A stretch of DNA of 64,000 bases from Cephalotus follicularis (Eukaryota; Streptophyta; Magnoliopsida; Oxalidales; Cephalotaceae): positions 18,946 through 82,945 of the forward strand of contig BDDD01002029.1 of the NCBI GenBank assembly GCA_001972305.1, written 5' to 3'. The notes beneath the pieces were generated by a model. It saw only the letters and a program-made list of their open reading frames with translations, was not told where the DNA came from and did not search any database. Positions 11,303 through 60,358 of the stretch are shown one piece after another; the stretch's first letter is position 1, and every line of letters starts with the position of its first letter. The position numbers and the translations under genes are program-made.

Positions 11303-11471
11303 GTCGACATCTTCTGGGAAAGCGTCGACGCATTTCTTTAGACAAAGCATCGACGCCTTCTGGGAAGTGTCAACGCTTAACACATGGACATATGTCGATG
11401 TCTTTTAGCAAGACATCGATGTTTTTAGCGCATTATTCTATAAGCGTTGACCCTTTCTTTTAAGCATCGAC
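11303..11471. repeat. Phased GTCGAC palindrome cluster, B 5' LTR
   Basis: Cores of the type GTCGAC (variants by C/T or G/A change) start at 11303, 11324, 11349, 11369, 11394, 11415, 11446 and 11466. Spacings are 21, 25, 20, 25, 21, 31, 20: four pairs, each 20-21 bp apart. The best copies extend to the 12-bp palindrome AGCGTCGACGCT. Spacers between motifs vary in sequence. Confidence 0.85.
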
Positions 11472-12198
11472 GCTTTATGCGCGACATGCAATCTGTGGAC
11501 GAACTTACATCATGGGCATGTTTTCGCTCTCATCTCCAACCGTTTTCTCTCATTCATGCACGTTATGGAAATGAGGGGATCATGGCTTCAGACTCCCTAG
11601 GAGTGAGGACCATGATTCTATGTGTATGGGAGAGTGGGAGAGAGGTAATGGGGTTGGTGAAAGTGTATTTCTGCAGAATATTGATTAGTTGCCAGATAGA
11701 GGTTTTTGGCTGGGCAAAACGAGTGAAACTTCTCTCTGCACTTGGATGATTCCTTTCACTGATATACACCAAGCATATTGCTTGTTTAGGGTGGATTGAT
11801 TTTGGCTAAGTCTTGTCAACATCAATTTACTCTTCTCAAGCTTAGAGAGAAAGTGAGAACACATTGTCTTTGTTCTTGTCGATTGGAGTAGATTCTGTAC
11901 CAGGGACTTTGGGAGCAACTAGTTTGGTGTCTTCCCAAGCATGTAGTGGCAGAGAAAGAAGGAGCCATAACTCGTTGGTATATCTTCTTGTCTCCCTCTC
12001 TTGTTGCCATGCTTGTGTGTCACCTTTGCTTGCCATTGGTGACCCTAATTCAATTAAGTTGGTGATGCGGTGATCCTTATGGCTTGTGGTCTTGACACAA
12101 TGGACTATTTTGTTTATGCTAAGGGTGGTTTTCCGCTGCATATTATGTTTTAAATGTTTTATTCTACACCTGTTATAGCTAAGTCCAATTGTGGCATT

Positions 12199-12219
12199 GG
12201 AAATGGTTTTTCCGTTTCC
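12199..12219 (+). other. Terminal LTR hairpin, B 5' LTR
   Basis: GGAAATGG-TTTTT-CCGTTTCC forms an 8-bp stem (one G-T pair) with a 5-nt loop, ending 4 bp before the LTR terminus. The 3' LTR has it at 44263-44283 and the related solo LTR G has it with compensatory changes. Confidence 0.7.
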
Positions 12220-12224
12220 ATCAG

Positions 12225-12236
12225 TGGTATTAGAGA
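12225..12236 (+). other. Primer binding site of B
   Basis: TGGTATTAGAGA directly follows the LTR. It differs from the plant initiator tRNA-Met site (TGGTATCAGAGC) at two bases, one of them a C-to-T change. Confidence 0.75.
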
Positions 12237-12766
12237 GTCCCATATCAACCCTAGTTGAATTTTTGCTATGAATGATGTACTGATTAAATGTTTAATTAAA
12301 TGATGTGTTTTTGGGTTAAACTTGATGTTCGAAGTGCCTTAATGAATTTTTGTATGAAATTGGATTTCATTGTTTTTAATCTTGGAGATTATGTTAAAAT
12401 GGGTTTTTGAACATGTTTTGGAAACTTACATGGTGTATTTTAAGGCGGTAAATTGTCTGGTTATGACTGTTATGCTTTATGCCTTATGTTCAAAACAATT
12501 TTCTTGTAATTTTTGAACTGCAGAAACTGTCAAGGGGACTTAAGCGTCGACGCTTTTGTCTTAAGCCTCGACTCTTGTCTCACTGGCATGTTGATGCGTT
12601 GACGCCCTGGCATACCGTCAACGCGTATTTGAGTTTTACGTTTTTGCGCCATAGACGTAAGAGTCGACGCCTTCTGGGGAAGCGTCGACGCCTTAGTCTA
12701 TTATAAAAAAAATCGGTTTCTAATAAAATTGGATTTTATGCATTATGGAACTTAGAAAATCAAAAT
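12237..12766 (+). other. B leader, part 1, with a second GTCGAC cluster
   Basis: Untranslated internal leader of B, T-rich, no long frame. From 12546 to 12689 it carries seven GTCGAC-type cores (12546, 12567, 12590, 12598, 12617, 12663, 12684), including pairs 21 bp apart. The leader is cut at 12766 by C and resumes at 25309. Confidence 0.7.
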
Positions 12767-13416
12767 TGATATGGGGAAAAATCCCTTATAAGCCTAATCA
12801 CACGTGTCAGGAGAGGAGGACAACAGCTGTCCTCCCAGGGAATGAGAGCATGGAGTATATGTCTTGTCATCAATCAAGGAAAAGGTCTCCCCAAATAGTC
12901 TGACACGCCACATAGGCTAGGAAGCCAGTCTCGCACGCCCGCGCAGCCACACAGATAGGCTGACACCCCGTCACATCAGTGTGAGGAAAGAGACTGACAA
13001 GCCGCCACAACCCTCCAATCCATTAATGGGCTTGCGGCTATGGACACCAAATGGAGATGAGACCAAGGGAAATGTCAGGGCCACTGACGTCCTCTCCCTA
13101 GGGGCAGCCAACTCCCGATTGGACGCTCATCAATCACAGACGTTCCTATAAATACCAGTGCAACAGTCAATACGAAGGTCAGCCATTTTTTTCTAGCACA
13201 TAAAGAACCTGATTACTCTCTGTACAACTGCTAACTTGAGCGTCGGAGTGTCCCCGGGAGTACCACCTCCTGGACCTTCTACCTTTCTCTCTTGCTTGTG
13301 CAGAGATCATCAGCTATCACTAAACACCCTTTCTCGGACAGATTCCCGCGTCTCCTCTAAACAAATTAAGCCCTTACACATGGGGTACTGTTGATGGAAG
13401 GATTTATGCATCAACA
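12767..13416 (+). repeat. 5' LTR of element C
   Basis: 650 bp, TGATATGGGG to GCATCAACA, same length as the 3' LTR. A TATA box lies at 13147. The last 28 bp form an inverted repeat, TGTTGATG (13389-13396) with CATCAACA (13409-13416), so the LTR terminus is one arm of a hairpin. Confidence 0.93.
13147..13154 (+). promoter_or_regulatory. TATA box of C's LTR
   Basis: TATAAATA in CCTATAAATACCAG, conserved in the 3' LTR at 25039-25046. The start of transcription would lie about 30 bp downstream, near 13180. Confidence 0.7.
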
Positions 13417-13418
13417 GT

Positions 13419-13434
13419 TGGCGCCGTTTGTGGG
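13419..13434 (+). other. Primer binding site of C
   Basis: TGGCGCCGTTTGTGGG begins 2 bp after the LTR end. The TGGCGCC start is common in Tat-lineage elements and differs from the tRNA-Met site of the other elements here. I do not assign the tRNA. Confidence 0.7.
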
Positions 13435-13461
13435 AAACGCAGCGAAAAGTCATCTAGAATC

Positions 13462-15148
13462 ATGCCTCCGAGGAAGAACGCTAACAACTACTCCATAGCA
13501 GGTGGAAGCCAAAGTACAGCTGGGAACGACCCAGCCCAAATCAGTCAAGTTGCCATGGACGTCGAGTAGGTTCCGGTTACGGGGGAGCAGCTCAATCGTC
13601 TGCTCCAAGGGGTGGAGCGTATTACCGATTTGTTGGTCACTACTTTGGCCAACCAACAGCAGCCAGCCGGGCCTGTCCAGTAAGTGGTCCGAGGAGTTTC
13701 TGGTCCCAGAAGACCAGAGGTGGAGACATGGCACCCACAAGGTGCCAGGCGAAACCCGCTGAGGGGAGACGAGCTTCCCCTTAGGCGGTCAGGGGGCCAT
13801 GTTCCCCTGGGGAGGAGACCTGAGATCAACGCATATCAGCGGGCAGAGTCCTCGACCGCCCTGGATCAACCTAACAATCCCAGGAGAGCGCATCCTGAGC
13901 GCCAGCCAATGGAGGTGGACCCCCAAGGGGAGGCCAGAGGCGTAGAGCAGGCGCCAGCGCGCACCAACGCTTCGCGCAGAGTAGGAGTGGAGCAGGGGAG
14001 CAGACACGACCACACAGCCGCTGTGGCTGGGGGGTCGCGTGTTTCTAGCAGGGTTAGGAAAATCGAAGATGTGGAGCAAGAAATGAACAGAAGGCTTACG
14101 GAGGTGGAGAAAAGGCTCCAAGGAGCCGAGAAGCCGAAGGGATACCTGGCGGAGGTGCACAGCCTCAGCGCCCATCCGTTCACGACAGAGATCGTGGCGG
14201 AGCGCATCCCTAGTGGGTTACGGCTCCCCAGCCTTGACAAATATGACGGGTCCACGGACCCCCTCCAGCATGTCCGCACCTACATCCAAACTATGTTGGT
14301 GCACCAGGCTTCAGACGCCATGCTCTACCGAGGGCTCCCGTCCACACTAACTGGAGCCGCCCAGTCTTGGTTCTCAACCCTGGCCCAGAAGTCAGTAGAG
14401 GACTTTGATCAACTCACGGACCTGTTCGTCACCAAATTCCTCAACAGCACCACGCAGAGGAGGAATGCCACCCATCTGATCAACGTGGTGCAAGGAAGGG
14501 ATGAGTCATTAAGGGACTACCTAACCAGGTTCAACAAGGAGTCTCTCACGGTGAAGGACCTGAAGCCATCTTTCGCCATGGCAGCATTAAGCAACGGCCT
14601 GAGGAAAAACTCCTCTTTCAACTTCTCCCTTCTGAAGAGACCCGCCTTGGACATGGAAAACCTGCTGAGGAGGGCAGAGAGATACGTCAACAAAAAAGAA
14701 GAGATGGCGGCCAGAAAACAAAAAGCCCCATGGTAGGGCCATCAGGAGGAGAGAGAAGACCATTTACGAAATGCTCCTGGAAAGAAAGAGAAGAGAAGGG
14801 AGAGAACGGACCTGACCAAGGACGACCTCAGACACAAGCTCTCTAGGAGGGAGGGCCCAACTCAGGGAGGGTCACCGATCACATCCTACAACCACTACGC
14901 CCCCCTCTTAGACACCCGTACTAGGATACTAGCCGTGGAGCAGGATAAGGTCCCCATCCAGTGGCCCGAGAAGTTGAGGTCCCCAGCAGAGAGAAGGTAC
15001 GTGGAGAAATACTGCCGATACCATCGTGACCATGGACTATATACCGAGGAATGCAGGCAACTGAAGAATTAGATTGAGGATCTGATCCGAAGAGGGCATT
15101 TACGCAAGTATGTAGATAGAGACGCTCCCTCGGGAAGAAGGGAGCAAA
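13462..15148 (+). pseudogene. gag: gag of element C (broken)
   Basis: The ATG at 13462 starts MPPRKNANNY. Stops fall at 13567 (TAG), 13681 (TAA) and 14734 (TAG), each one transition from CAG, CAA, CAG/TGG. The longest open stretch (13684-14736) holds an acidic/basic linker, a short coiled-coil-like piece (EVEKRLQGAEK), then the gag core with LPSLDKYDGSTDPLQHV, AAQSWF and FVTKFLNSTTQRR. The 3' part reads YCRYHRDHGLYTEECRQLKN near 15013-15070, the Cys/His motif typical of Tat Gag. F inserted just after, at 15149-15153, between gag and protease. Confidence 0.88.
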
Positions 15149-15257
15149 GGAGATGTTGACTTTTTAGTCTCAATCATAAGTTTTAATGATTACAAATTTG
15201 CATTTAACATGTTTACTTAATTTGCAAGATATTAGAAAGCTTCACATAAGGCAAAAC

Positions 15258-15619
15258 ATCAACTGCAAGCAAAAGACATCGACCTCTATTGCAAAAGACA
15301 TCGACGCCTTTGATCCAGCAAAGTTACAGGCCACTTTTTGTGAAAGACATCGATCCCTTTCAACAAAGACATCGACGTCTTTAGTGCCCAAAGTTACAGG
15401 TCAAATTTTAGTGAAGACATCGATCCTTACAAGAAGAATTCGATGTGATGATCATATATTCAAATGCCTGAACAGATTCCCATCAAAGACATCGACGCCT
15501 ATAAAAAGACATCGACGTCTTTTTAAATGATTGACCCGGGAAACACGGAACGGCTAGTTAACGCACTTACAACGGCTAGTAACAGTCAAAGACATCGACG
15601 CCTTTATGAAGACATCGAC
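15258..15619. repeat. Phased GACATCGACGTC cluster in solo LTR F
   Basis: Cores ATCGAC or variants start at 15258, 15278, 15300; 15349, 15371; 15419, 15439; 15491, 15511; 15594, 15614. Within groups the spacing is 20-22 bp; groups are about 70 bp apart, once about 100. The extended motif approaches AAAGACRTCGACGTCTTT, an 18-bp palindrome. Some intergroup spacers share AAAGTTACAGG, so part of this array arose by tandem duplication. Confidence 0.82.
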
Positions 15620-15737
15620 GTCTTTCTGCCAGCAGAGACAAAAACAAAGCTGCATCAACACATTTTTATATCCAAAAACTTCCAACACTTCTCCAACGGC
15701 TATATTTCTTCACCAACGGCTAGAATCTAAATGAAGC

Positions 15738-15745
15738 TATATATA
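15738..15745 (+). promoter_or_regulatory. TATA box of solo LTR F
   Basis: TATATATA followed by GAGGTCAAG; it lies just downstream of the phased motif cluster, the arrangement of an upstream element plus core promoter. Confidence 0.5.
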
Positions 15746-16275
15746 GAGGTCAAGAAACAAGATTTAAGAGACTTGAAAGGACTTTTGATCATCTAACATC
15801 CAAGCAAAACTTGCACATCTACAAGGAGAAGAACATCAAGCCTTTGTTTACACTTTCATATCCAACCTTTGAGTGGTTACTTGTAAACACAAACTATCTT
15901 TACAAATCCTTCTTTGTAAAAAGGGTGTTAAAACCCTTGGTGAGAATTTAGAGGGGAGTAAACCCTAGTAAGGTGTTTGATTGATTTGCACTCAGAACCC
16001 AAAATCAAGTGTAAGGTGGTTTGCTTTGATTTGTACCCGTAAGCCGAAAATCAAAGGTTGCTAGTGGTATCTAGTGGAATCTCAAGGGGTTCTTGAGAAA
16101 GTGGACGTAGGCACGGATTTTGTCGAACCACTATAAATCGTTTGCACACTCTCTATCCCTTATCTCCTTACTTACAATTGTATTATTTGTTCTTGTGTGA
16201 TTGTTTATATTCATAGTTTAATTTGTTAATTCCGCAAACAAATTCTTATTAAAGGTTGCCATACAATTCCCAACA

Positions 16276-17472
16276 GGAGAGACCATCTCTGGGGGGGTCG
16301 CTTCCGGCGGCGACCACAAGAATGGTAGGAAAGCCTACGAGAGGTAGTCCCTGGCGGTAAAGCAGGTCCATCACAGCAAGAGGTTGAGGACTGGCGGAGT
16401 TGAGGAGGTCATATCCTTCTCCGAGGCAGACTATGAGGGAGTACGTCTCCCTCACGACGATCCAATGGTGGTGACTCTCATGGTGGAACTTTTCACCATG
16501 AAAAGGATTTTGATTGACAGCGGTAGCTCAGTCGATCTTCTATACAAACATGCTTTTCATCAACTCAGGATACCGGTCGAACAGTTGAAGCCCGTGAAGA
16601 CCCCGCTGGTCGGCTTTGCAGGGGAGATAGTCCATCCTCTAGGATCCGTCGACCTTTCGGTGGTTGCAGGCACAACTCCACGCCAAACCCAGGTGCAGAT
16701 GACTTTCCTGGTGGTTGATACGCCAAGCCCATACAACGCACTAATCGGGCGACCAGGGCTGAACCTGATGGAAGCGATAGTGTACACAAGGCACTTGCTC
16801 ATGAAGTTCCCCACGAGGTTTGGTGTGGGAGAAGCCAGAGGAGACCAACAGGCAGCCCGACAGTGCTACAAGACATCCATCGCAGACCGAGGGAAGGACA
16901 AGGTATTTGTGGTAGCGAGCATGGAGCTCCGCGGGGACATGGAACCCGAGCGGCCACAGCCTGCTGAAGACGTGGTCCAGGTGCCCCTGGAAGCGGGAAA
17001 CTCCGAGAGAGCCTTCCAAGTCAGCTCACAGCTCGGAGAGGCGGAGAAGGGGGAATTAATAACAATCCTCCGGGATAATAGAGATGTGTTCGCCTGGACG
17101 GCGGAGGAAGTTCCTAGCATCAGCCCAAACGTCATGGTTCATAGACTAAGCGTGGATCCGGCCAGGACTCCGACCAGGCAGAAGAAGAGAAACTTTGCTC
17201 CTGAGCGTGAGCTAGCGATAGCCGAGGAGGTGAGCGAGCTGATGCGGGCGGGGTTCATAAGGGAGGTGCACTACTCAGACTGGCTGGCGAACCCAGTCCT
17301 AGTCAAAAAGGCGAATGGCAAGTGGAGGATGTGCATTGACTTCACCGACCTCAACAAAGCCTGTCCGAAGGATCACTTCCCCCTTCCAAAGATAGACCAG
17401 TTGGTGGATGCAACCTCGGGCTACAGAATGTTGAGCTTCCTGGATGCTTACTCGGGGTATAACTAGATTCCT
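16276..17472 (+). pseudogene. pol: Protease and N-terminal RT of element C
   Basis: Just after F the frame reads GGVASGGD, the usual Tat lead-in, then the long open part begins. ILIDSGSSVDLLY (about 16509-16547) is an intact aspartic protease active site, with the second landmark YNALIGRPGLN near 16735. RT begins around 17200: NPVLVKKANGKWRMCIDFTD, CPKDHFPLPKIDQLVD, MLSFLDAYSGYN, then TAG (17464-17466), which fits CAG to TAG. The same frame continues past this stop to 20172 with only two more stops. Confidence 0.9.
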
Positions 17473-18954
17473 ATGCATGAACCCGATGAAAACAAGATAG
17501 CTTTTGTCATGGACCGGGGAATATATTGCTACAAGGTCATGCCCTTCGGTTTAAAGAACGCAGGGGCCACCTACCAACGGCTGGTCAACAAGATCTTTGA
17601 GCCCCATATTGGAAGGAACATGGAGGTCTATATTGATGACATGCTCGTCAAAACTCCGGCCAGGAGCCCCCACGTCAAAGACCTAGAGGAAACGTTCGAG
17701 GTGTTGAGAAGATATCAAATGAAACTCAACCCTTCTAAGTGCACTTTTGGGGTCACCTCAGGAAAGTTCCTGGGGTTCATGGTTTCGGGCAGAGGAATAG
17801 AGGCCAACCCAGTGAAGATCTCGGCGGTCCAAGATCTAAGGCCTCCCCAAACCATCAGGGATGTGCAAAAGCTGAGTGGAAGGATAGCGGCCCTGAGTAG
17901 GTTTGTTTCGAAGTCAGCAGAAAAATACCTCCCATTCTTTAGGGTACTGAGGGACCCCAAGGGGTTTTCCTGGTCAGATGAATGCCAAGCAGCCTTCGAC
18001 AAGTTGAAGGAGTACCTGGCTTCCCCGCCCCTGATCTCAAAGCCTAAGGACGGGGAAGACTTGTATTTGTACCTTGCGGCCACCCCGGGCGCAGTGAGTG
18101 CAGTGCTGGTCAGAGAGGAAGAGAAGGTTCAAAGGCCAGTGTACTATGTGAGCAAGGCATTAAATGATGCTAAGGGGAGGTACCCGGAGGTGGAGAAGTT
18201 CACCTACGCTTTGATCATCGCAGCCCGGAAGTTAAGGTCGTACTTTGAATCCTATACAATCAAAGTTCTGACTGACAAGCCCCTCAAGCAAGTTCTCGCG
18301 AAGCCTGACACCTCGGGCAGACTAATTAAGTGGTCAGTCGTGCTAGGCGAGTATGATGTGAAGTTCGAAGCCAGACCAACGATCAAGTCACAGGTCCTGG
18401 ATGACTTTGTTGGAGATAATACACCTACGGAGTGTATGGAGGAGGACCCCTCCGAGAGCGAGAGGGAGAGCTGGAAGTTATCCGTGGATGGCTCTTCCTG
18501 CATCACGGGCAGTGGTGCAGGGGTGCTACTGGTGAGTCCAAGTGGGTGGACATTGGAGTATGCTCTGAGGTTTGGCTTCAAAGCCACAAACAACGAAGCT
18601 GAATGGGAAGCTCTTATAGTCGGGCTGACAATTGCGAAGCATTTAGAGGTGCAGAGGATAGAAGCCTCTAGTGATTCTCAGCTAGTGGTTGGTCTGGCCT
18701 GCGGAGAGTACGAGCCCCGAGAGGATTCAATGGAAAAGTACTTATCACACTTCCAGAATTTGAAGCCAACTTTCGAAGTTCTCAGAGTTACGAAGATACC
18801 CAGGGCAGAAAACGCCCGGGCAGACCAGGTGTCGAAACTAGCCACTGGAGGAGAGTTAAAGAAGAACCAGACCGTGCTGATAGATTACCTGGACAGGCCC
18901 ACCATCTCTGGGGTAGATGTGATGGACATTGACTTACCCCAGGAGCCAAACTAG
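17473..18954 (+). pseudogene. pol: C-terminal RT, RNase H and second (archaeal-type) RNase H of element C
   Basis: 493 codons open. The RT catalytic Y-I-D-D lies at 17629-17640 and is intact. The connection and first RNase H follow (LYLAATPGAVSAVLV, YPEVEKFTYALI, about 18058-18360). A second RNase H starts near 18475 with SVDGSSCITGSGAGVLL, then NNEAEWEALIVGL and ASSDSQLVVG. This extra domain, resembling archaeal/plant-type RNase HI, is a known hallmark of the Tat lineage. The frame ends at TAG 18952-18954 and integrase continues in the same frame. Confidence 0.92.
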
Positions 18955-20172
18955 ATGACACCGTTTCTTAACTGGCTAAGGGATGGGAATTTACCCGAGG
19001 ACCCTGTAGAGGCAAGAAAACTGGTGTACAGGGCAAACAGATTTCAGCTCCGTGATGGGATCCTTTACAAAAGGTCCTTTTCGTTCCCCTGGCAGAGATG
19101 CCTACCTCCCCTAACGGCCGATTATGCTCTAAGGGAGGTCCATGAAGGAGTGTGCGACAACCATACAGGGGGCAGGACGTTGTCCCACAAGTTGCTAAGG
19201 CAAGGCTATTATTGGCCAACTTTGCACCAAGATGCCGTCGATTTGGTGAGGAGATACGACAAGTGTCAGAGGAATGCGAACATAAGCAGAAGACCTTCTC
19301 AACCTCTGACATCTATAACAGCCCCCTGGCCCTTCGCACAATAGGGGATGGATTTTGTAGGACCACTTCCAATGGCCACAGGCCAGAGGAAGTTCCTCAT
19401 TGTAGAAGTGGATTATTTTACCAAGTGGGTGGCCACTATCACAGAGAAGAACACCGAAAGCTTCGTGCGGAAGTCCATCATCTGCAGGTTCGGAGTCCCC
19501 AGGATAATAGTTTCAGATAATGGGAAACAGTTTGATTGCCAGGCTTTCCGCGACTTTTGCCAAGAGTGGAGAATAGAGCATAGGGTCGCCTCCGTGGCCT
19601 ACCCCAAGAGAAATGGCCAAGCAGAGGTAATAAACAGAGAAATAATCTCGGGCTTGAAGAAGCTCCTTGAAGGCAGCAAAGGAAGATGGACGGAGGAGCT
19701 ACCAAGTGTTTTATGGGCGTATAGAACTACTCCTCGGATCACCACCGGGGAGTCCCCATTCAGTCTTTGCTTCGGAGTGGAGGCCATGATACCGGTGGAG
19801 ATTGGTGTCCAGTCACCAAGGGTTGTTCACTTCACAGAGAAAAATAACGAAGAAGGGCTCAGATGCCTCCTCGATCTGGTAGGAGAGCTTAGAGACAAGG
19901 CTGCCATCAGAGTCGCAGCTTACCAACAAAGGGTGAGCCGTTACTACAACAAGAGGGTGAGCCCCAGACCACTAAGGCAAGGAGACCTGGTCCTGCGTAA
20001 CTCAGCAATTTCAGACCCCACCGGGACTAGAGGAAAGCTAGCCCCTGCCTGGGAGGGGCCATACAAGATCAAAAGAGTACTCCGACCAGGAATATTCAAA
20101 CTTGAAACTCTGGGGGGTAGGGAGATTGCCAGAGCTTGGAATGCCGAGCATCTGACGAAATACTACCAATAG
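18955..20172 (+). pseudogene. pol: Integrase of element C
   Basis: The zinc-binding part includes HEGVCDNHTGGRTL and, downstream, CQRNANISRRP. The catalytic core starts MDFVGPLPMATGQRKFLIVEVDYFTKW (first Asp), then RIIVSDNGKQFDC (second Asp) and NGQAEVINREI (Glu), so the DDE triad is readable. One TAG at 19342-19344 sits where the family has Trp (TGG to TAG). There is no chromodomain, as expected for Tat. The frame ends at TAG 20170-20172. Confidence 0.9.
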
Positions 20173-21398
20173 TTGCACAAACTCAGGAAATAAAAGAATT
20201 TTTTCTCAACTCTTCCTCCAAAAATTATATTCAAGACTATAGTTCCAAGTTCACAAGGGGCCGGAGGTCCAATGTTCATGTTCTTCAACCCCTGAACAGC
20301 CGTCGACCAACTCTAACGAAGCCTCCCTGCCAGGGAAGCACCAAAAAGACCCCCAGGAGGGCGGACCTAACAACGCTAAGCAGGGGGAACAACCCCCACC
20401 CCCAAACGCTCAACCGACGTCAAAGGGATGGGGTCTCACCCCGGTGGCATGCCTAAGGGTTTCGCCGGTGCACCCCTGACAAAACATCTCCAGGGGCCGG
20501 GCTGAACTGAGGACGGGAGCACGAGCAAAACTAGGCCAAGCCTCTTACTCATGCGTAAAGCCCGCACCTGGACCCGGGCACCGACGCCCGAGGGCTCCAC
20601 CAAACCCCATCTTATGGCTGACCGACCCGAGCTCCCCAGCGGAGCACCCAACAAAAAGCCTCCCCCGGGGGATCACGTGAAGACTTCCAAATAAACAATA
20701 AGACCCCCCGGGGAGCATCCCCCGATCGGCAATCCCATAGGAACTTGCGCGACCGGACTTGAAGTCGTGTCTTGAGAGGCGAATCCATGGGAACTCACAA
20801 TGATCAAGGTCGTTGTACTGAGTGCTTTAATACAAGTGTCCCTGCGCAGACTGCGAGCTCAGACAACCTGGCTCACGACTTGCTGAGCCAGACGACAACC
20901 TGCGCGGCAAACCCATAGGAACTTGTCCGGGTAGAGCGAAAGCTGAGTCTATGAACGCAGCAGAGCTTGCACAGGCCAAGTCTTTTTTGCCTAAGCACCT
21001 TTAAAATGAGGTGTCCCAAGGGGACTACCAAGCTAGGGCGATCAAAGTTCAGAGACAGTTGTACTATTTACACTTCATCATCCTAAGAGGACGGAAAAAC
21101 CTAAGCGATTGAGCGTGTCAAGTTATAGGATTGTGGTGTTGTTTGCATTCAACTGCCCTAAGGGGACAGTGCAGGCCTGGGAGGAGCGCAAGCGCCGCGC
21201 GCAAGGCTGGCAGAGCCCGGGGCCAGGGAGCGCGATGCTCCCTAAGTGCCTTGTGAATTGTTAAAAGCAAATAAATGAAATAGACAAGTTAAATGTAAAA
21301 ACACTTCATTGTATTAATAACTCGAAATTACAAGGCAAAAAAAGGAAAAAGTTACAAAGTGAAACTAAAAACAAAAAAGAAAAAAGCTACTCTAGGCC
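20173..21398. other. Non-coding 3' region of C, between pol and antisense gene
   Basis: About 1.2 kb, GC-rich in its first half (many CCCC/GGGG runs), with no domain I recognise on either strand. The antisense gene ends at 21399, so this stretch may include its 3' end. Confidence 0.5.
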
Positions 21399-48295: not shown

Positions 48296-48540
48296 TTAGT
48301 TACTAAACATAGAGTGGAAGTAACTAGGAATTTCACATGTGTGGCTGCTAAACACAGAGGGGAAGTAGTTCCGTACAATGGTTACTAAACACACAGTGGA
48401 AGTAACTGGGCTACTAAACACAGAGTGGAAGTAGCTAGGGACTCCCACATTTGGCGGTTACTAAACGCAGAGAAAAAGTAGCCGGGTTGCTAAACACAGA
48501 GTGGAACTGACCGAGTGCTAAACATAGAGTGGAAGCACCC
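48296..48540. repeat. Tandem CTAAACACAGAGTGGAAGTA repeats in H
   Basis: About eight imperfect copies of a unit containing CTAAACACAGAGTGGAAGTA, variably spaced. Directly after it (48546-48690) lies a second array with GACATGATTGACTGGAT-type units of about 45 bp. Confidence 0.75.
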
Positions 48541-49889: not shown

Positions 49890-50071
49890 TGTAATACCCT
49901 GCTTGCCTGTACGTATTTTCTTACGGGTTTTATCTGTTTCGTTTAAGTATTTGTTTGTTTTACGTTGGGTTTATGTTTTCGGGCTGACTGGTACCAGCCT
50001 TGGTTTTGGGCATGTTAGTATGAACATTATGTTTGGTAAGTTGGTCATATTATTATTATTACAAACCAATT

Positions 50072-50079
50072 TATAAATA
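50072..50079 (+). promoter_or_regulatory. TATA box of E's LTR
   Basis: TATAAATA in AATTTATAAATACATAA, conserved at 57706-57713 in the 3' LTR. A CT-rich leader follows, as in many plant promoters. Confidence 0.6.
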
Positions 50080-50996
50080 CATAATTATAATCTTTTAAAA
50101 CAAATTATTTTTAAAATCCCTATTTCTTTTAATTTCCTATATCCTTTTTAATCTCTTTTCTCTCCCTCCCTTATCTCTCCCGTCACCTTCTCCGCTCAAT
50201 CTTTTTCTATCCATAATCTTCTCCCACTTTCCTTCTTCTCTTCCTGGGAATCTGCCTATATTCCTTATCCAAAATATTGGTTTTTCCTTTTTGCTCTTCT
50301 TTCCCGTTTTGCTTCCTTTTTGCTATTTATGTGAGACAATGCCATGGAAACGGCTATCTCTTTCTGTGTGTTGCTGCTGCCGAACTTGCTGTGTCATTGA
50401 GGATGTGATTTATGTGTCTTATTACTCCATTAGTAAGGTTAGTTTCATAAAGGTTCAATTCAATAATTGTTTTAATGTTAATGGTATGGCACAATCAAAA
50501 CTTTGAGTGTATGTTTCTCTCCTTTGATTATGTCGAACAACTGTGATCTTCTTCAGTTAGTGTCGCCATTGCAGGTTAGTTGATGCTTATTTGTGATGGT
50601 TATGCTATTAAATTTATACAAAAATTATTTTAGCATGTATAAGATTCTAGAGAAGGAGTTGTCTAAAATTCTGCCTTCTTGTTTTTCTATCAAATAAATC
50701 CTGTGTTAGCAGCCATCTGTAGACATCTAGGGAGTGTTATATAATCTAGTTTTGATGCATGTGAGTGTGATAAGTGGACTGAATTGGGTTATGCAATGGT
50801 ATGCTATGGTTTAAGTCCCTGACACCTTTAAATAATTCGATGTCAAGATGTTCCTGTCAAATTCTGTGTTATAACATCGTTTTACATGCCATATAAAGTT
50901 GTTTTTAATATCGGTAATCTTCTAGTGTCAAAAAAACTGAGTTTTGGCAACTAAATTGAACAAAACTGCACAAAACTGCTGTTTTGTCACCCAGAG

Positions 50997-51203
50997 CAGT
51001 CGACTGCCCATATGAACAGTCGGCTGTTTGGTTTGAGTAGTCGGCTGTCTTGTGCGAACAGTCGACTGTTTTGTGTTGGGTAGTCGGCTGGACCCCTGAT
51101 TCAGTCGACTGCCTGCAGTCCAGGTTGAGTAGTCGACTGGCCCTATTGTGTAGTCGACTGCCACTCCTTGAACAGTCGACTGGATCCCTGAAACAGTCGG
51201 CTG
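50997..51203. repeat. Ten phased CAGTCGACTG palindromes, E 5' LTR
   Basis: Copies start at 50997, 51017, 51038, 51059, 51081, 51102, 51130, 51151, 51173 and 51194: spacings 20, 21, 21, 22, 21, 28, 21, 22, 21. Each is YAGTCGRCTG; the exact form is a perfect palindrome. The 10-12-bp spacers are unrelated to each other, so this is not a simple tandem repeat. The array is also present in the 3' LTR at 58631-58837. Confidence 0.95.
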
Positions 51204-52729
51204 GTTTGTCCTGTAACTTTTTGTTTTCATCCGTTTACTCTTCCGATGAATCAGGGTCTGTTTTAAACATCATTATTATTCTGTTTTATGACCGAAATGA
51301 ATTTTAGACCCTTATTTGAATATGGTTATGTTGTATAGATTATTGTGCTTCGCGAGGCTATTAAGTTTACCGGATATTCGTAAGTTAGTCTGTGATCGCA
51401 TAAGGTACGGATCTTCGTTCCTTGATACACTCTTACTGATTTTATTAGAGTACAAATTCAGTTCTGTTTTGAGAATAAAATACGGATTCTTTGTTCGGTT
51501 TTATCTGAATTGAATCTGTTTTGTTTTAATGGGATGTACGGATATTCTGCTCTTTGCTACTATCTTCGATTTTAGCAAAATAAAATCAGTTTTGGACTTC
51601 TGAAATATTTGAAATGAATTCAGTTTTATGATATGTTTTATTTGGCTTTATGAACGAAGTATATTTTGCATGCCTCAAATGAAGTCAGTTTGATATTTTG
51701 CGAAAACGAATATTTCTGACTTTATGAATTCAGCTGTGATATGCCTCTTTATTGTGGAAATAAAAGAGTTGCTTTTTATTATGAAAAGTATAAATTATGT
51801 GAAACTATATCGTTTGAGAAGGATTTATGATTATGTTTGGGAAACCTTTCCATGTATTTTAAATTGATTTGATGAAATCAAGTTTTTGAAATGGTGAAAT
51901 ACTAAGCTTTTATAACCACCTATGGGGGTACCATAGGCATGCTGTGGGCCTGGCACGGGGGCATGACACTTTCCGTAACAGTGTGATTAGTTTACGGCGT
52001 CTCTCTGGGATATCCTTGGATAAGATTTGTGATAGAGGCGTATGGATCGATCCTAGTTATATGTTTTGGGATATGTTATGATATGGGAATTGTATGTGTA
52101 GTGCCGTACACTGCAATTCTATTTGGCAAAGTGGGTGTCGCGAACCCCTTGCTACTATGTGTTTCTGATATGTTATGGGTTTTGGTGCTCAGTTATGGAA
52201 CCTATGTTTTGGAAAGGTATACTTTATGGTTTCAAGTTATGAACTTTGTTTACATGTTTTGCCGTGGGCATTTACAAACTATGTTTAAACTATTTTATCG
52301 CTTAAGATTTCAGTTTTAAGGTACTTTTTGAAATCTTCCTGCTTTAAAATATTGTTTACTATTTTACATTCTATATTCGTACTGAGGTTTGCTCAGCCGC
52401 GTTTTTGTTTCCATACGGCAGGTTATCAGAAGCGACGGGGCAATGTGTGATGAGAGTGACTCCCTTATGTCTGAGGATCATCTAGGAGCTGATCCCTTTG
52501 TGTTTATGTGGTCATAGTGGACTCGTTTAATAAACAATATGTTAAATTCAGTTATGACTTTTGGATTATGAATAAGTTTCAGTTTATGATAAGTTTCAGT
52601 ATGTTTTTGGATATGCTTTAAACCATCACGTATTTAATAAAGATGAGCTTTTCTAGTATGTTTAGTTATGATTAAGTTTTTTTATGGGCACCTGTAGCGA
52701 CTCCCACTGCTCGGGGGTATTATAGTTTA

Positions 52730-52741
52730 TGGTATCAGAGA
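52730..52741 (+). other. Primer binding site of E
   Basis: TGGTATCAGAGA, one base off the plant initiator tRNA-Met site, 5 bp after the LTR. Confidence 0.85.
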
Positions 52742-52895
52742 ATAGGATTTGTTCCTTAGAAGACCTAACTAGGTTTGACCTGTGAGATTGGGTAGACTTG
52801 GGTTAGGTCTGTTATGTTATGGCCTTTCTGATATGTTTTCTGTTTTGATTTTTTGTATTTCGGTTTGATATCTCGTGTTTCGGTTTCCTTCGTAG

Positions 52896-54110
52896 ATGGT
52901 ACGTACAAGAAACACTCCTTAGAGAACTGCACCAGCTGGGGCTCAAAATGAAGTCAGAAACGAGCCTTCTGTGGAAGAGTTGGTTCATCAGGCGGTTGCT
53001 CAAGAGGTGAGTCGTGTAATGCAACAACAGAATCGGGAACAAGTTGTTGAGGAGAATGCTCCGGCAGAGGTTCAGAGGGATATGGGAACTGGGGATAGGC
53101 TTGGCAGACCTACTCATGTTTGGCTTGAGCGGTTTCAGAAACAGAGGCCGCAGTCCTTCAGTTCGGCTATGACACCCGTGGAAGCCGAACACTGGATAGC
53201 ACATATGGAAAAGATCTTTAGTGTTCTGAGGTGTGATGATCAACAGAAGGTAAGGTTAGCGGCTTACAAACTCGAAGGAGACACTCAGAGGTGGTGGAAT
53301 ACTTTGAATTTGGCTAAGGGTGGAGGTTATGATGATGCTCTGTTATGGTATGAGTTCCGGGAAGTTTTCTATCAGCAGTATTTCCCCACTGCTGATAAGG
53401 AGGCCTATGCTAGGGAATTCGTTAACACCAGGCAGAAGGATGGAGAAACAGTTTCGGAGTTCTTGGCCCGTTTCACTAGATTGGCTGGGTTTGCTGGATC
53501 CGTGACGGGGTCAGCATCGGAGCAAGCTGAGAAGTTCAAGTGGAAGTTGTATTACCAGTTGAGCGGAAAGCTGATAAACTCCAAGTTTGCGGATGTAGCT
53601 GAAGTTGCAAATGCTGCAAAAAACATAGAGTTGGAGAGATTGGACTTCCAGGCAGCACGTCAAGAGGGAGATAAAAAGCGGAATAAGAATGAACAAGATT
53701 CTGGACAGCAGAGCAAGGGTCAAGGCAGTTGATGGAACAGGGGCAGAGGAGGTGAACAACGTAAGAAAGATCACAAGCAGAATAATGATGGTGATCAACA
53801 GCGTCAGCAAGGAAATGATCAGAAGAATGCACAGGGAGTTGGTGGGGGTAACCCCAATGTTCAGATTACTAAATGTGATACTTGTGGTAGGTATCATCCA
53901 GTCGGTACCTGTTATAAAGTCAGTGGGGCCTGTTTTGTGCGTGGACAGATGGGACACTTCGCGAAGGATTGTCAGGATCCTCGTGCTAAGGAAAGGAAGG
54001 GTAATGGTGCGGATGCTGGGCAACGCAACATGGGAGGCCGAGTCTTTGCAATTACGACTCATCAGGCAGCTAATGCTCCAGGTACGGTTTCGGGTTTTAT
54101 TTCTGTTGGT
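52896..54110 (+). pseudogene. gag: gag of element E
   Basis: The ATG at 52896 starts MVRTRNTP, then TAG at codon 9 (52920-52922). The frame stays the same to the end of pol. The gag core follows: FQKQRPQSFSSAMTPVEAEH, LAAYKLEGDTQRWW, FREVFYQQYFP, FVNTRQKDGETVSEFLARF. A charged linker (RQEGDKKRNKNEQD) precedes TGA at 53730-53732. The Cys/His region reads CDTCGRYHPVGTC and CFVRGQMGHFAKDC (about 53879-53975); in the second knuckle the second Cys is Arg (TGT to CGT). Upstream 52742-52895 is leader. Confidence 0.92.
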
Positions 54111-54581
54111 AACCGTAGAGCTTATGTGTTATATGATACTGGATCGACACACTCGGTTGTAGCGAGATCTTTTGTTCGGCATCTTGGGATGCCTTAGCAG
54201 TTGTTTCATCCAACTTTGGTTGTTTCTACCCCTATGGGGACATCTGTTGTGATATCTGAGTGTTTTTATGCTTGCCCACTTGTTTTCGATGATCGGATTC
54301 GTGATACGGATCTTTTTCCTATGGATATGTATGATTTCGATATGATTCTGGGTATGGATTGGTTGGATCGCCATAGGGCTACGATTGATTGTCATACTCG
54401 GAGGGTTTTGTTTTGAGATGTGGGTCGACCTGATTTTATTTATCAGGGTACACGGCCTATGAAAGATGTTGAGATCATATATGTTATGAAAGCTCAGAAG
54501 TTAGTAGCTAAGGGTGCCGAAGGGTTTCTAGCGGTTGTGAAGGATGTCTAAAGGGTCGAGCCTCGCGTTGAAGACTATCCT
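54111..54581 (+). pseudogene. Protease region of element E
   Basis: VLYDTGSTHSVVARSF has an intact D-T-G (Asp codon 54135-54137). MYDFDMILGMDWLDRHRATI is the second landmark (about 54333-54390). Three stops fall here: TAG 54195-54197, TGA 54414-54416 and TAA 54549-54551; the sense codons they replace would be CAG, CGA and CAA, each one C-to-T away. Confidence 0.9.
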
Positions 54582-56291
54582 GTGGTTAGGGAGTTTTCTG
54601 ATGTGTTTCTGGAGGAGTTACCGGGTTTGCCACCGCAACGGGAAGTGGAGTTTACCATTGAGCTCATTCCTGGGGCGGCACCTATATCTAAAGCACCTTA
54701 TAGGATGGCACCGCTTGAGTTGCAAGAGCTGAATGAGCAGTTGCAAGAGTTGTTAGATCGGGGTTTTATTTGGCCTAGTGTTTCGCCGTGGGGAGCTCCA
54801 GTTTTGTTTGTGAAGAAGAAAGACGGATCTATGAGACTGTGTATTGACTATAGAGAACTAAATCGGATCACTATTCGTAATAAATACCCTTTGCCTAGGA
54901 TTGATGACCTATTTGATCAACTCCAAGGTGCGCAGTATTTTTCTAAGATCGATTTGAGATCTGGATATCATCAGTTGCAGATAAAAGATGAAGATGTGCC
55001 TAAGACCGCTTTTCGCACACGGTATGGGCATTATGAATTTCTGGTGATGCCGTTTGGGCTTACGAATGCACCGGCAGTTTTCATGGACCTTATGAATCAG
55101 GTTTTTCATGAGTTTTTGGATCGGTTTGTGATTGTGTTCATCGATGATATCCTCGTGTATTCGAAATCGAAGGAAGAACATGAAGATCAACTTCGTATAG
55201 TGCTTGGTATTCTGAGGAAGAATCAGCTATATGCAAAGTTCTCGAAATGTGAGTTCTGGTTGGAACAGGTGGCGTTTTTAGGCCATGTGGTTACAGCGGA
55301 AGGGATTACTGTGGATCCTGCTAAGGTTGAAGCTATTACTAAATGGCCGAGACCTACTACAGTATCGGAGGTTCAGAGCTTTTTGGGTTTAGCTGGTTAC
55401 TATAGGCGGTTCGTGGAAGGCTTCTCCTCCATAGCCTTGCCACTGACTCAGCTTATGAGGAAGGGAACGAAGTTTGTGTGGAATGATGAACGGGAGGCAA
55501 GCTTCGAGAAAATGAAGAACGGTCTTGTGTCTGCACCGATTCTTCGTTTACCATCTGGGTCGGGAGGATACCATGTTTATAGTGATGCTTCTAAAAAGGG
55601 TTTGGGTTGTGTTCTGATGCAGCATGGTCATGTGATAGCATACGCTTCAAGACAGTTGAAGCCTTACGAGTTGAATTACCCTACACATGATCTCGAGTTG
55701 GCGGCAGTTGTGTTTTCATTGAAGATTTGGAGGCACTACTTGTATGGAGAAACTGGTGATGTCTTTACCGATCATAAGAGTCTCAAGTACATCTTCACGC
55801 AAAAGGAGTTGAATATGCATCATAGGCGTTGGTTAGGGCTTTTGAAGGATTACGATCTGAATATTCAGTACCACCTTGGTAAAGCAAACGTGGTAGCTGA
55901 TGCTCTGAGTAGGAAGAGTTCTGGGAGTGTGGCGACTTTGGTTACTCAGTCACAATTGATAGCAGATATGGAGCGATTGGATTTGAATCTGTTTGTTCGA
56001 GGTTCAGATGGATATATGTCTAGCATGAGTATGGAGCCTACCCTTATATCTCGAATTAAGGCAGCTCAGAGTGATGATGGCGAGCTTTGGGCCTTGGTTC
56101 AGAATGTTGAAAAGGGTAAACAGTCAGATTTTTGTGTGGATAAGCATGGAGTGATCTGGTTGGGTAGTCGATTGTGTGTTCCGGCAGATACTTCTATCAG
56201 AGATGTTGTCTTGTCTGAAGCGCATAGCTCTCCATTCTCTATACATACAGGTTCTACAAAAATGTACAGAGACTTGAAGGAAAATTTCTAG
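54582..56291 (+). pseudogene. pol: Reverse transcriptase, RNase H and start of integrase, element E
   Basis: 569 codons without a stop. [69 protein letters not shown], catalytic F-I-D-D at 55137-55148. Connection: [16 protein letters not shown]. RNase [63 protein letters not shown]. The integrase zinc region begins ([20 protein letters not shown]). The stop TAG at 56289-56291 stands where Trp (TGG) is expected. All RT and RNase H landmarks are intact. Confidence 0.95.
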
Positions 56292-57470
56292 TGGAGCGGA
56301 ATGAAAAGGGATGTAGCGGAGTTTGTCGGGAAGTGTTTGGTCTGTCAGCAGGTCAAGATCGAACACCAGCGTGCAAATGGTTTGTTACAGCCCTTGGAAG
56401 TTCCGGTATGGAAATGGGAGAGTATTGCGATGGATTTTGTTACTGGCTTGCTGAGAACTTACAGGAGAAACGATGCTATTTGGGTTGTGGTAGATCGGTT
56501 GACCAAATCAGCTCACTTCTTGGCAATCCGAGAGGACTTTTCTGTGGACAGTTTGGTGGAGGTTTTCCAGCGGGAGATTGTGAGACTGCATGGGACTCCC
56601 GTATCTATTGTTTCGGATAGGGATCCCCGTTTCACATCACGGTTTTGGAAGGGGTTTCAGAAAGCTTGGGGTACGAGGCTAAATTTTAGTACAGCTTTCC
56701 ATCCACAGGCAGATGGGCAGACAGAGAGGACCATTTAGACCTTAGAAGATATGTTGAGGTCTTGTGCTTTGGAGTGGACTGGGAGCTGGGACGAGTATCT
56801 GAGCCTTGTAGAGTTCGCCTACAATAACAGTTGGCATGCTAGTATTCGTATGGATCCGTTTGAAGCTCTTTATGGGAGGAAATGTCGAGCTTCGACATGC
56901 TGGGATGAAGTTGGAGAAAGAGTTATCGAGGGGCCAGAGCTAGTACGAATCACTACTGAGAAAGTGGCTATAGCAAGGGTGAGGTTGAAGGCAGCTCAAT
57001 CTCGACAGAAAAGATATGCAGACAGACACCGGAATGACTTAGAGTTCAAAGTAGGTGAACATGTGTTCTTAAAAGTTTCACCTTGGAAAGGCGTCCGACG
57101 GTTCGGACTGAAGGGAAAGTTGAGTCCTCGGTTTATAGGACCGTTTGAAGTTCTGGAGAGGGTTGGCACAGTTGCGTATCGGTTAGCTTTGCCTCCACAG
57201 TTAGTACATGTTCATAATGTGTTCCATGTGTCCTTGTTAAGGGGCTATCAGTATCATCCCCTACACGTGGTCCACTATCCTCTGGACAGCATTCGGGAGG
57301 ATCTATCTTGTGATGAGGAGGCGGATGCAATTCTGGATCGAAAGCAACGGGTTACACGTAGCAAGACCGTTTCGTTTGTAAAGGTGTTGTGGAGGAACCA
57401 TCCCGAACGTGAGGCTACTTGGGAGATGGAGGAGCAACTTTGGGAACGATACCCTCGTTTGTTCGTTTAA
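56292..57470 (+). pseudogene. pol: Integrase and chromodomain-like tail of element E
   Basis: The zinc part ends CLVCQQVKIEHQ. Catalytic core: MDFVTGLLRTYRRNDAIWVV and VDRLTKSAHF (first Asp), SIVSDRDPRFTSRFW (second Asp), QADGQTERTI then TAG at 56736-56738 in place of Gln. The C-terminal part has [35 protein letters not shown] and [13 protein letters not shown]. The chromodomain-like end reads VKVLWRNHPEREATWEMEEQ before TAA (57468-57470). The DDE triad is present. Confidence 0.93.
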
Positions 57471-57510
57471 GGTATGTGTATGTTAAAATTTCGGGACGAA
57501 ATCTTCTTTT

Positions 57511-57523
57511 TAGGGGGGGTGGA
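57511..57523 (+). other. Polypurine tract of E
   Basis: TAGGGGGGGTGGA directly before the 3' LTR. Confidence 0.9.
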
Positions 57524-60358
57524 TGTAATACCCTGCTTGCCTGTACGTATTTTCTTACGGGTTTTATCTGTTTCGTTTAAGTATTTGTTTGTTTTACGTT
57601 GGGTTTATGTTTTCGGGCTGACTCGTACCAGCCTTGGTTTTGGGCATGTTAGTATGAACATTATGTTTGGTAAGTTGGTCATATTATTATTATTACAAAC
57701 CAATTTATAAATACATAATTATAATCTTTTAAAACAAATTATTTTTAAAATCCCTATTTCTTTTAATTTCCTAAATCCTTTTTAATCTCTTTTCTCTACC
57801 TCCCTTATCTCTCCCGTCACCTTCTCCACTCAATCTTTTTCTATCCATAATCTTCTCCCACTTTCCTTCTTCTCTTCCTGGGAATCTGCCTATATTCCTT
57901 ATCCAAAATATTGGTTTTTCCTTTTTGCTCTTCTTTCCCGTTTTGCTTCCTTTTTGCTATTTATGTGAGACAATGCCATGGAAACGGCTATCTCTTTCTG
58001 TGTGTTGCTGCTGCCGAACTTGCTGTGTCATTGAGGATGTGATTTATGTGTCTTATTACTCCATTAGTAAGGTTAGTTTCATAAAGGTTCAATTCAATAA
58101 TTGTTTTAATGTTAATGGTATGGCACAATCAAAACTTTGAGTGTATGTTTCTCTCCTTTGATTATGTCGAACAACTGTGATCTTCTTCAGTTAGTGTCGC
58201 CATTGCAGGTTAGTTGATGCTTATTTGTGATGGTTATGCTATTAAATTTATTCATAAATTATTTTAGCATGTATAAGTTTCTAGAGAAGGAGTTGTCTAA
58301 AATTCTGCCTTCTTGTTTTTCTATCAAATAAATCCTGTGTTAGCAGCCATCTGTAGACATCTAGGGAGTGTTATATAATCTAGTTTTGATGCATGTGAGT
58401 GTGATAAGTGGACTGAATTGGGTTATGCAATGGTATGCTATGGTTTAAGTCCCTGACACCTTTAAATAATTCGATGTCAAGATGTTCCTGTCAAATTCTG
58501 TGTTATAACATCGTTTTACATGCCATATAAAGTTGTTTTTAATATCGGTAATCTTCTAGTGTCAAAAAAACTGAGTTTTGGCAACTAAATTGAACAAAAC
58601 TGCACAAAACTGCTGTTTTGTCACCCAGAGCAGTCGACTGCCCATATGAACAGTCGGCTGTTTGGTTTGAGTAGTCGGCTGTCTTGTGCGAACAGTCGAC
58701 TGTTTTGTGTTGGGTAGTCGGCTGGACCCCTGATTCAGTCGACTGCCTGCAGTCCAGGTTGAGTAGTCGACTGGCCCTATTGTGTAGTCGACTGCCACTC
58801 CTTGAACAGTCGACTGGATCCCTGAAACAGTCGGCTGGTTTGTCCTGTAACTTTTTGTTTTCATCCGTTTACTCTTCCGATGAATCAGGGTCTGTTTTAA
58901 ACATCATTATTATTCTGTTTTATGACCGAAATGAATTTTAGACCCTTATTTGAATATGGTTATGTTGTATAGATTATTGTGCTTCGCGAGGCTATTAAGT
59001 TTACCGGATATTCGTAAGTTAGTCTGTGATCGCATAACGTACGGACCTTCGTTCCTTGATACACTCTTACTGATTTTATTAGAGTACAAATTCAGTTCTG
59101 TTTTGAGAATAAAATACGGATTCTTTGTTCGGTTTTATCTGAATTGAATCTGTTTTGTTTTAATGGGATGTACGGATATTCTGCTCTTTGCTACTATCTT
59201 CGATTTTAGCGAAATAAAATCAGTTTTGGACTTCTGAAATATTTGAAATGAATTCAGTTTTATGATATGTTTTATTTGGCTTTATGAACTAAGTATATTT
59301 TGCATGCCTCAAATGAAGTCAGTTTGATATTTTGCGAAAACGAATATTTCTGACTTTATGAATTCAGCTGTGATATGCCTCTTTATTGTGGAAATAAAAG
59401 AGTTGCTTTTTATTATGAAAAGTATAGGTTATGTGAAACTATATCGTTTGAGAAGGATTTATGATTATGTTTGGGAAACCTTTCCATGTATTTTAAATTG
59501 ATTTGATGAAATCAAGTTTTTGAAATGGTGAAATACTAAGCTTTTATAACCACCTATGGGGGTACCATAGGCATGCTGTGGGCCTGGCACGGGGGCATGA
59601 CACTTTCCGTAACAGTGTGATTAGTTTACGGCGTCTCTCTGGGATATCCTTGGATAAGATTTGTGATAGAGGCGTATGGATCGATCCTAGTTATATGTTT
59701 TCGGATATGTTATGATATGGGAATTGTATGTGTAGTGCCGTACACTGCAATTCTTTTTGGCAAAGTGGGTGTCACGAACCCCTTGCTACTATGTGTTTCT
59801 GATATGTTATGGGTTTTGGTGCTGAGTTATGGAACCTATGTTTTGTAAAGGTATACATTATGGTTTCAAGTTATGAACTTGGTTTACATGTTTTGCCGTG
59901 GGCATTTACAAAGTATGTTTAAACTATTTTATCGCTTAAGATTTCAGCTTTAAGGTACTTTTGGAAATCTTCCAGCTTTAAAATATTGTTTACTGTTTTA
60001 CATTCTATATTCGTACTGAGGTTTGCTCAGCCGCATTTTTGTTTCCATGCGGCAGGTTATCAGGAGCGACGGGGCAATGTGTGATGAGAGTGACTCCCTT
60101 ATGTCTGAGGATCATCCAGGAGCTGATCCCTTTGTGTTTATGTGGTCATAGTGGACCCGTTTAATAAACAATATGTTAAATTCAGTTATGACTTTTGGAT
60201 TATGAATAAGTTACAGTTTATGATCAGTTTCAGTATGTTTTTGGATATGCTTTAAACCATCACGTATTTAATAAAGATGAGCTTTTCTAGTATGTTTAGT
60301 TATGATTAAGTTTTGTTATGGGCACCTGTAGCGACTCCCACTGCTCGGGGGTGTTACA
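57524..60358 (+). repeat. 3' LTR of element E
   Basis: 2835 bp, about 35 differences from the 5' LTR by eye. TATA box 57706-57713; palindrome array 58631-58837; hairpin 59553-59571; ends GGTGTTACA. Confidence 0.95.

Follow-up and report, generated by a model that had tools for sequence, protein, structure and literature searches.

Introduction

In the tobacco copia elements Tnt1 and Tto1, the enhancer of the long terminal repeat (LTR) contains activator boxes that are repeated and partly palindromic and that have been tested experimentally. In this study, we analyzed 64 kb of DNA from Cephalotus follicularis (contig BDDD01002029.1, positions 18,946 to 82,945; this whole stretch is called the window, and its own numbering is used below), in which palindromes centered on GTCGAC form arrays in six LTR types (B, D, E, F, G, and H). 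The tobacco boxes are likewise repeated in LTRs; they have other sequences and belong to one element each. The arrays of the window are probably mid-LTR cis-regulatory modules composed of two-fold symmetric elements, the putative binding sites of a host protein that contacts DNA as a dimer.

Among the closest described systems are the repeated motifs (RMs) of Sireviruses (Bousios et al. 2010, PMC2829016, where Tnt1 box I is also mentioned). These palindromes were found in 13 Sireviruses, and their clusters occupy the upper LTR half, shortly before a conserved TATA box near mid-LTR. The RMs were called Sirevirus specific, and 12 of the 13 carry a CGG-CCG signature; the Vitis RM, CGGTCGACCG, has a GTCGAC core, and the Tnd-1 RM, ACAATCGATTGT, an exception to the signature, has a TCGA center (PMC2829016). 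The claim of an earlier note on this DNA, that such a phased motif had not been described, was therefore too strong. As far as PMC2829016 describes them, the RMs and the present arrays are alike in being short, CpG-containing palindromes in at least eight copies per element, with family-specific arms and a position in the upstream part of the LTR. With degenerate sites counted, at least eight copies are present in E (10), D (10), B (8 in the LTR plus 5 in the leader), G (8), and H (16), whereas F has only 5. The present arrays lack the CGG-CCG signature, the consensus arms in the six families being CAG-CTG, GCG-CGC, and GAC-GTC.

The RMs occur in copia elements, whereas the present arrays are found also in gypsy LTRs (D, E, and probably H). 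Copia-type pol, a trait of the Sirevirus genus, is present in B (RVT_2), but E and D have gypsy-type reverse transcriptase (RT) and RNase H. The junction of the LTR and the primer-binding site (PBS) is CA-ATTGG-TATCAGAGC in Sireviruses, with the polypurine tract (PPT) AGGGGGAG-AT-TG (PMC2829016), whereas B has CA-GTGG-TATTAGAGA and AGTAGGAG-AT-TG, respectively; B is an old copy, and decay is therefore a possible cause of the mismatch. The doublet spacing of 19-22 bp reported below was not found for RMs in the accessible text of PMC2829016, and a search of the open-licence literature yielded no description either of GTCGAC-class arrays in gypsy LTRs or of a doublet rule. Palindromic LTR repeats being known from Sireviruses, the present arrays are a variant of which the GTCGAC class in gypsy elements and the doublet rule are the apparently new part. 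They resemble the RMs in appearance and probably work likewise.

Arrays of GTCGAC Dyads in Copia and Gypsy LTRs

The dyads were located as follows, each element being denoted by its letter.

11303-11471, plus strand: array in the 5' LTR of B, 8 dyads with spacings of 21, 25, 20, 25, 21, 31, and 20 bp
12546-12689, plus strand: dyads of the B leader (Bint), 5 sites with spacings of 52, 19, 46, and 21 bp, behind the PBS and outside the LTR
15278-15619, plus strand: array of G, doublets at 15278/15300, 15349/15371, 15491/15511, and 15594/15614
25775-25876, plus strand: upstream cluster of D (D1), 4 dyads with spacings of 27, 21, and 48 bp
26799-26907, plus strand: main array of D (D2), 6 dyads AACAGTCGACTGTT with spacings of 20, 21, 21, 21, and 20 bp
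33427-34462, plus strand: dyad copies in the 3' LTR of D
36275-36398, minus strand: array of F, 5 dyads with spacings of 20, 52, 25, and 21 bp
43366-43535, plus strand: copy of the B array in the 3' LTR (42068-44287)
46526-47939, plus strand: dyads of H in clusters 46526-46722, 47382-47642, and 47798-47939, with an intact TCGA center at 7 of 16 sites
50999-51201, plus strand: array of E, ten dyads CAGTCGRCTG/TAGTCGRCTG with spacings of 20, 21, 21, 22, 21, 28, 21, 22, and 21 bp and diverged spacers
58633-58835, plus strand: copy of the E array in the 3' LTR, identical to the 5' copy

The earlier note had placed the palindromes in LTRs of at least five families from both superfamilies. Six LTR types carry arrays of them, and both superfamilies are represented, B being copia and D and E being gypsy; F, G, and H are solo LTRs assigned by likeness or by their ends. 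Within LTRs, the array clusters are mid-LTR in position, and none falls in the last third. Not all of the dyads are borne by LTRs, given that the five sites of Bint sit in the internal leader of B. These leader dyads would be included in genomic RNA.

Core hits were defined as GTCGAC plus its six single-transition variants. The main comparison set all eight LTR types, once each and with A and C included (15,929 bp), against the remaining 37,535 bp, with the B leader counted as non-LTR. The LTRs contain 64 core hits (4.02/kb), and 40 (1.07/kb) are found elsewhere; core pairs 19-23 bp apart number 25 in the 15.9 kb of LTR versus 3 in the other 37.5 kb. In Markov null sequences for single LTRs, at most one such pair appeared in 200 trials each. 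A previous comparison counted 68 hits (5.04/kb) versus 39 (0.91/kb) and 27 versus 1 pairs at 19-23 bp; it was biased in that only the array-bearing LTRs and the B leader stood for LTR sequence. Counts outside the main comparison used LTR borders a few bases off (10031-12224 for the 5' LTR of B). Base composition predicts 10.7 occurrences of exact GTCGAC in the window, whereas 39 are present when both LTR copies are counted. For A and C, the left LTR yields 0 and 1 core hits, respectively, which bears out the claim that these two lack arrays.

The symmetry extends beyond the core. Arms with at least four of five symmetric positions flank TCGA at 15 of 67 occurrences in the LTRs and at 6 of 116 elsewhere, 2 of these 6 being in the B leader (17/66 and 4/123 with the biased LTR set). 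The other 15 self-complementary tetranucleotides gave 0 to 5 such cases in LTRs, the top rates being those of GGCC (1/14) and CCGG (1/10); TCGA is the only one of the 16 that clearly has symmetric arms there. In a census of palindromes that was blind to the core and counted both LTR copies, TCGA was the center of 24 of the 73 G+C-containing imperfect palindromes and the next center accounted for 5, with 42 palindromes expected by chance in all.

Spacing and Conservation of the Dyads

Spacing was analyzed on a curated list of 62 sites in 10 clusters, from which nine hits outside clusters had been dropped (four in B, one each in D and G, and three in H) and to which three degenerate, in-register sites had been added. 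GTCGAC is intact at 21 of these sites and at none of the eight in G. Thirty of the 52 adjacent intervals measure 19-22 bp, as compared with a mean of 6.7 and a maximum of 17 in 20,000 random placements within clusters. Four clusters are unlikely by chance even when taken singly (p < 0.02), namely, E (8/9 intervals), D2 (5/5), G (4/7), and B (4/7). Most of the remaining intervals form loose groups around 25-31 and 45-52 bp, and a few are longer.

The phase of about 21 bp that the earlier note had ascribed to all arrays is thus borne out as a spacing preference, but a ladder is confined to the E array and D2. In B, F, G, and H, doublets of 19-22 bp are accompanied by some single sites and by gaps of 25-120 bp, and the H cluster H1 has no doublet. 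Because the other intervals fall loosely and without a 10.5-bp period, we describe a doublet rule rather than a phase: the commonest unit is a doublet with centers about 21 bp apart, i.e., approximately two helical turns, with no uniform phase. It is clearest in G, where the doublets lie 49, 120, and 83 bp apart with unrelated sequence between them. Uniform helical phase was rejected as a general rule and retained for the doublets. The proposal of 21-nt small-RNA phasing is unsupported, as the spacing varies.

The motif is conserved over the flanks, with 1.81 and 0.45 bits per column, respectively, in E, 1.72 and 0.64 in D, and 1.19 and 0.67 in G, whose list includes two poor sites. Substitutions per base between the two LTRs are fewer in the array than in the rest of the LTR in D (0.023 versus 0.051) and E (0 versus 0.013). 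Four of the ten E sites read GTCGGC on the plus strand and none shows CpG decay, which points to a tolerated variant and not to wear; the mirror form GCCGAC occurs in D. CpG decay was also compared between the array and the rest of the LTR (8/22 versus 20/52 in B, 1/6 versus 14/38 in D, and 0/11 versus 4/58 in E); the cases are too few to read a sign of methylation or protection from them.

A functionless alternative is neutral tandem-repeat slippage, within each LTR family, of a unit that is palindromic and about 21 bp long. Tandem Repeats Finder (TRF) detects repeats with a unit of this length over D, E, and F, as well as 42-48 bp units in D. However, likeness of the spacers is mostly lost where the dyad is kept, the doublets of G and H are widely separated, and three arm classes sharing one center would be unexpected from independent slippage. 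We regard slippage as decidedly unlikely.

Kinship of the Arrays

The three arm classes around the one center are AAAGRCRTCGAYGYCTTT in B, F, and G, AACAGTCGACTGTT in D and E, and GCGTCGACGC in H. The arms vary symmetrically, as had been proposed, and fall into these classes, D and E sharing one. Pairs of arrays were aligned and compared with versions in which the motif was kept (10-18 bp held) and the spacers were shuffled. B and F, which are true homologues, were detected at every motif length held. The D and E arrays are alike with 10 bp held (0/200 and 0/300 shuffles) and within chance with 14 bp held (p = 0.12). For F and G, the likeness exceeds chance at motif lengths of 10-16 bp (p = 0 to 0.005) and no longer does so at 18 bp (p = 0.11). 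For B and G, the p value is 0.01 with 10 bp and 0.08 with 14 bp held; for F and H, it is 0.03 with 10 bp and 0.6 with 16 bp held. No likeness beyond the core was detected for B-E, B-D2, G-E, G-D2, F-D2, F-E, B-H, G-H, D2-H, or E-H. The copia and gypsy array pairs tested have nothing in common beyond the core, and the number of independent array origins is nearer three than five or six.

These results bear on the insertion of one repeat family into all of the LTRs, which the earlier note had set against its own reading. Such a family, spread by insertion or recombination, would account for the homology of B and F and for the likeness of the F-G, B-G, and D-E arrays with a short motif held, but the latter three pairs fall within chance once 18, 14, and 14 bp, respectively, are held, and the lack of wider copia-gypsy likeness does not fit. 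The explanation is weakened accordingly, and it is the least probable of those considered here.

Folding of the Arrays

Palindromes in a transcribed LTR could form RNA hairpins whose stems feed small-RNA production, as proposed for the LTRs of maize Sireviruses (Bousios 2016, as summarized in PMC10760457). All seven arrays folded more stably than 60 dinucleotide shuffles each (z = -3.7 to -8.3), and when no more than 10 bp of the motif was held, the spacers seemed to contribute to the stability of B, F, and G (z = -3.3 to -3.7). With 16 bp held, however, shuffling of the spacers mattered little (z = -0.97 to +1.95 in five arrays; -0.42 for F on its own strand), and when spacer lengths were randomized in addition to the shuffling, the mean energy shifted by 4.7 kcal/mol in E but by no more than about 1 kcal/mol in D2, B, F, and G. 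Because the spacers give no help once 16 bp is held, the long dyads explain the folding, which appears to be a by-product of the palindromes and leaves the spacing unexplained. Despite the maize precedent, we consider hairpins an unlikely reason for the arrays; selection for RNA stems in the spacers was likewise not favored by the folding tests with the motif held.

Putative Regulatory Role and Candidate Factors

In the proposed mechanism, a dimeric host protein would read the RTCGAY center, and related factors or family-specific optima would explain the differing arms. Two dyads with centers 19-22 bp apart, or about two turns of B-DNA, would place two dimers on one face of the helix, which could allow cooperative binding. 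Unrelated copia and gypsy elements would have gained such modules convergently, for transcription when the factor is active. Convergent capture of such sites, which the earlier note had listed among its possible meanings, gives the best fit to the dyad arms, the conserved motif, the spacing, and the lack of wider likeness. We infer the protein binding, the dimeric state, the host origin, and the activating role from the sequence.

A single factor may serve all of the families. More specifically, several copia and gypsy families of this genome may each have recruited, independently of one another, the same dimeric transcription factor of the host, or a few paralogues of it, that reads RTCGAY dyads in cooperative 19-22 bp doublets; we offer this tentatively, as possible but somewhat less than an even chance. 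Much of the retrotransposon load would then be under one shared switch, and the divergence of the arms between families would serve to tune binding or to partition it.

Several results weigh against the regulatory interpretation. As a bare hexamer, GTCGAC (19 in the eight LTR types versus 8 elsewhere) ranks only second by ratio among 64 palindromic hexamers, behind GTTAAC (6 versus 2), and TTTAAA, in third place, is nearly as enriched (21 versus 10); the hexamer alone is therefore unexceptional, and the strong part of the observation is the symmetric arms together with the spacing. Its ranking as the single most enriched hexamer (22 versus 5) was obtained only with the biased LTR set and was dropped. 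The TCGA center is kept at just 41 of the 62 sites. These sites were hand-picked from the 68 core hits of the biased set, and the spacing result is therefore favored by the curation; Bint, D1, F, H1, H2, and H3 taken singly miss p = 0.05, and the intervals outside 19-23 bp have no 10.5-bp period (R = 0.29, n = 20, circular statistics). The B array diverges more between its LTRs than the rest does (0.105 versus 0.068 per base). Simple TATA patterns were unmatched behind the B, E, and F arrays and were matched only about 800 bp on in H. The same search found TATTATATAT about 250 bp behind the array in D and TATATATA about 120 bp behind that in G, where TATATATAG follows the last dyad at a distance of about 120 bp.

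The most concrete candidate reader is a bZIP protein of the FD type, because FD binds both the GTCGAC motif and the C-box GACGTC and the arms of F and G contain GACGTC. In the FT promoter, FD binds the C-box, the A-box, and the GTCGAC motif, and mutation of GTCGAC lowers the FD signal in chromatin immunoprecipitation (PMC13360168). The F dyad GACGTCGACGTC has two C-boxes flanking GTCGAC. The likeness to the FT promoter, where GTCGAC and GACGTC are bound in vivo, is one of motif only: as described in PMC13360168, those are single sites in a gene promoter, associated with repression, and not transposon arrays. A second candidate is an AP2/ERF factor that reads RYCGAC, the motif listed for such factors (CBF/DREB, CBFHV) in PMC4886440. 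RYCGAC on either strand fits 45 of the 62 sites, but so loose a pattern gives no reason to expect symmetric arms, which AP2 factors would not need, a further point against the interpretation.

The arrays might instead be targets of an anti-silencing protein encoded by the elements, like the VANC sites of VANDAL transposons. Both are dense, short, family-specific motifs in noncoding transposon DNA (PMC5735166). The VANC targets, however, are asymmetric motifs of 8-9 bases in DNA transposons, read by an element-encoded protein, and the VANC21 motifs lie in one orientation (PMC5735166), whereas the present arrays consist of dyads. The extra open reading frame (ORF) of E (157 aa), the sole extra ORF tested, has no Pfam match. 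The same core is present in copia and gypsy elements, which favors a shared reader. Anti-silencing, another meaning offered by the earlier note, is thus the weaker one and very unlikely.

If unrelated families do share a docking code, many of them could be activated or silenced at once by one host factor, for which three probe sequences would allow a direct search. Gypsy elements would then share a palindromic repeat design so far reported as a trait of Sireviruses, and doublets of 19-22 bp would be a simple sequence rule for locating LTR enhancers.

Nested LTR Elements of the Window

The window is plant DNA crowded with nested LTR retrotransposons. The nesting was resolved by self-comparison and LTR ends; TSD denotes target-site duplication.

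4435-6764 and 45950-61569: C, an older LTR pair, the right copy split by H and E
10034-12223 and 42068-44287, plus strand: LTRs of the copia element B, TSD GTGTA at both element ends
12767-25308: A, gypsy with an RVT_3 RNase H-like domain, nested in B
15154-16275, plus strand: G, copia-type solo LTR, TGTTGAC...CCCAACA, TSD GGAGA, nested in A
25603-37079, plus strand: D, gypsy-type pol (RT/RNase H) with chromovirus-like ends, 5' LTR 25603-28211, nested in B
35528-36829, minus strand: F, copia solo LTR, TSD GTTAT, nested in the 3' LTR of D
46361-49251, plus strand: H, solo LTR, ends TGTAATGACC...GTGTGACA, TSD AATCA/AATCG, in the 3' LTR of C
49890-60358, plus strand: E, gypsy pol element, 5' LTR 49890-52724, interrupting the right LTR of C

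The copia domains Pol_BBD, gag_pre-integrs, and RVT_2 precede the 3' LTR of B, and F is related to B with 69-85% identity, varying by stretch. F, G, and H have no pol. The LTR ends suggest that G is copia, and its start presumably resembles Sirevirus LTRs. The terminal sequence of H is as in D (TGTAAT...GTGTGACA); because its ends resemble those of D, H is more likely gypsy than copia. By their coordinates, the six nested insertions (A, D, E, F, G, and H) all start outside the GTCGAC-class arrays, and insertion hot spots were therefore rejected as an explanation; plant LTR elements prefer palindromes only slightly as insertion sites (PMC6911290).

E carries gypsy RT/RNase H, and its chromodomain match (23.3 bits) is just below the Pfam cutoff (25.1). 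Among the best 120 of 7974 protein matches of the E pol, the top identities (76-82%) are mostly to Asteraceae (Tanacetum, Mikania, and Helianthus), and proteins of Cucumis and Solanum lead by score. The viral contig collection contained no relative of the E pol, and the plasmids contained no match to the E DNA. A search of the viral contigs with the doublet pattern returned 11 stretches with one match apiece, which we take as chance.

A lone dyad, AAAGGAGTCGACTTCTTT, at 74-79 is perhaps at the edge of another LTR. The C LTRs, which have no GTCGAC arrays, contain a dyad repeat of their own with a period of 25-28 bp (5726-5911 and 60543-60719), the TRF consensus of which includes TGACC-GTAAA-GGTCA; judging from this repeat, dyad arrays may be wider than the GTCGAC core. 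Both C LTRs also contain a 24-bp repeat, AGAGCAGACCAGCGCCAAGGCTGC, at 5251-5530 (11.7 copies) and 49662-49889 (9.4 copies), and E is inserted at its end. The interior of D has a 260-bp tandem duplication (28771-29294, 97% identity). In A, 68-bp tandem repeats at 24213-24549 lie between pol and the 3' LTR, the same place at which repeats are reported in Retand elements (PMC11963269).

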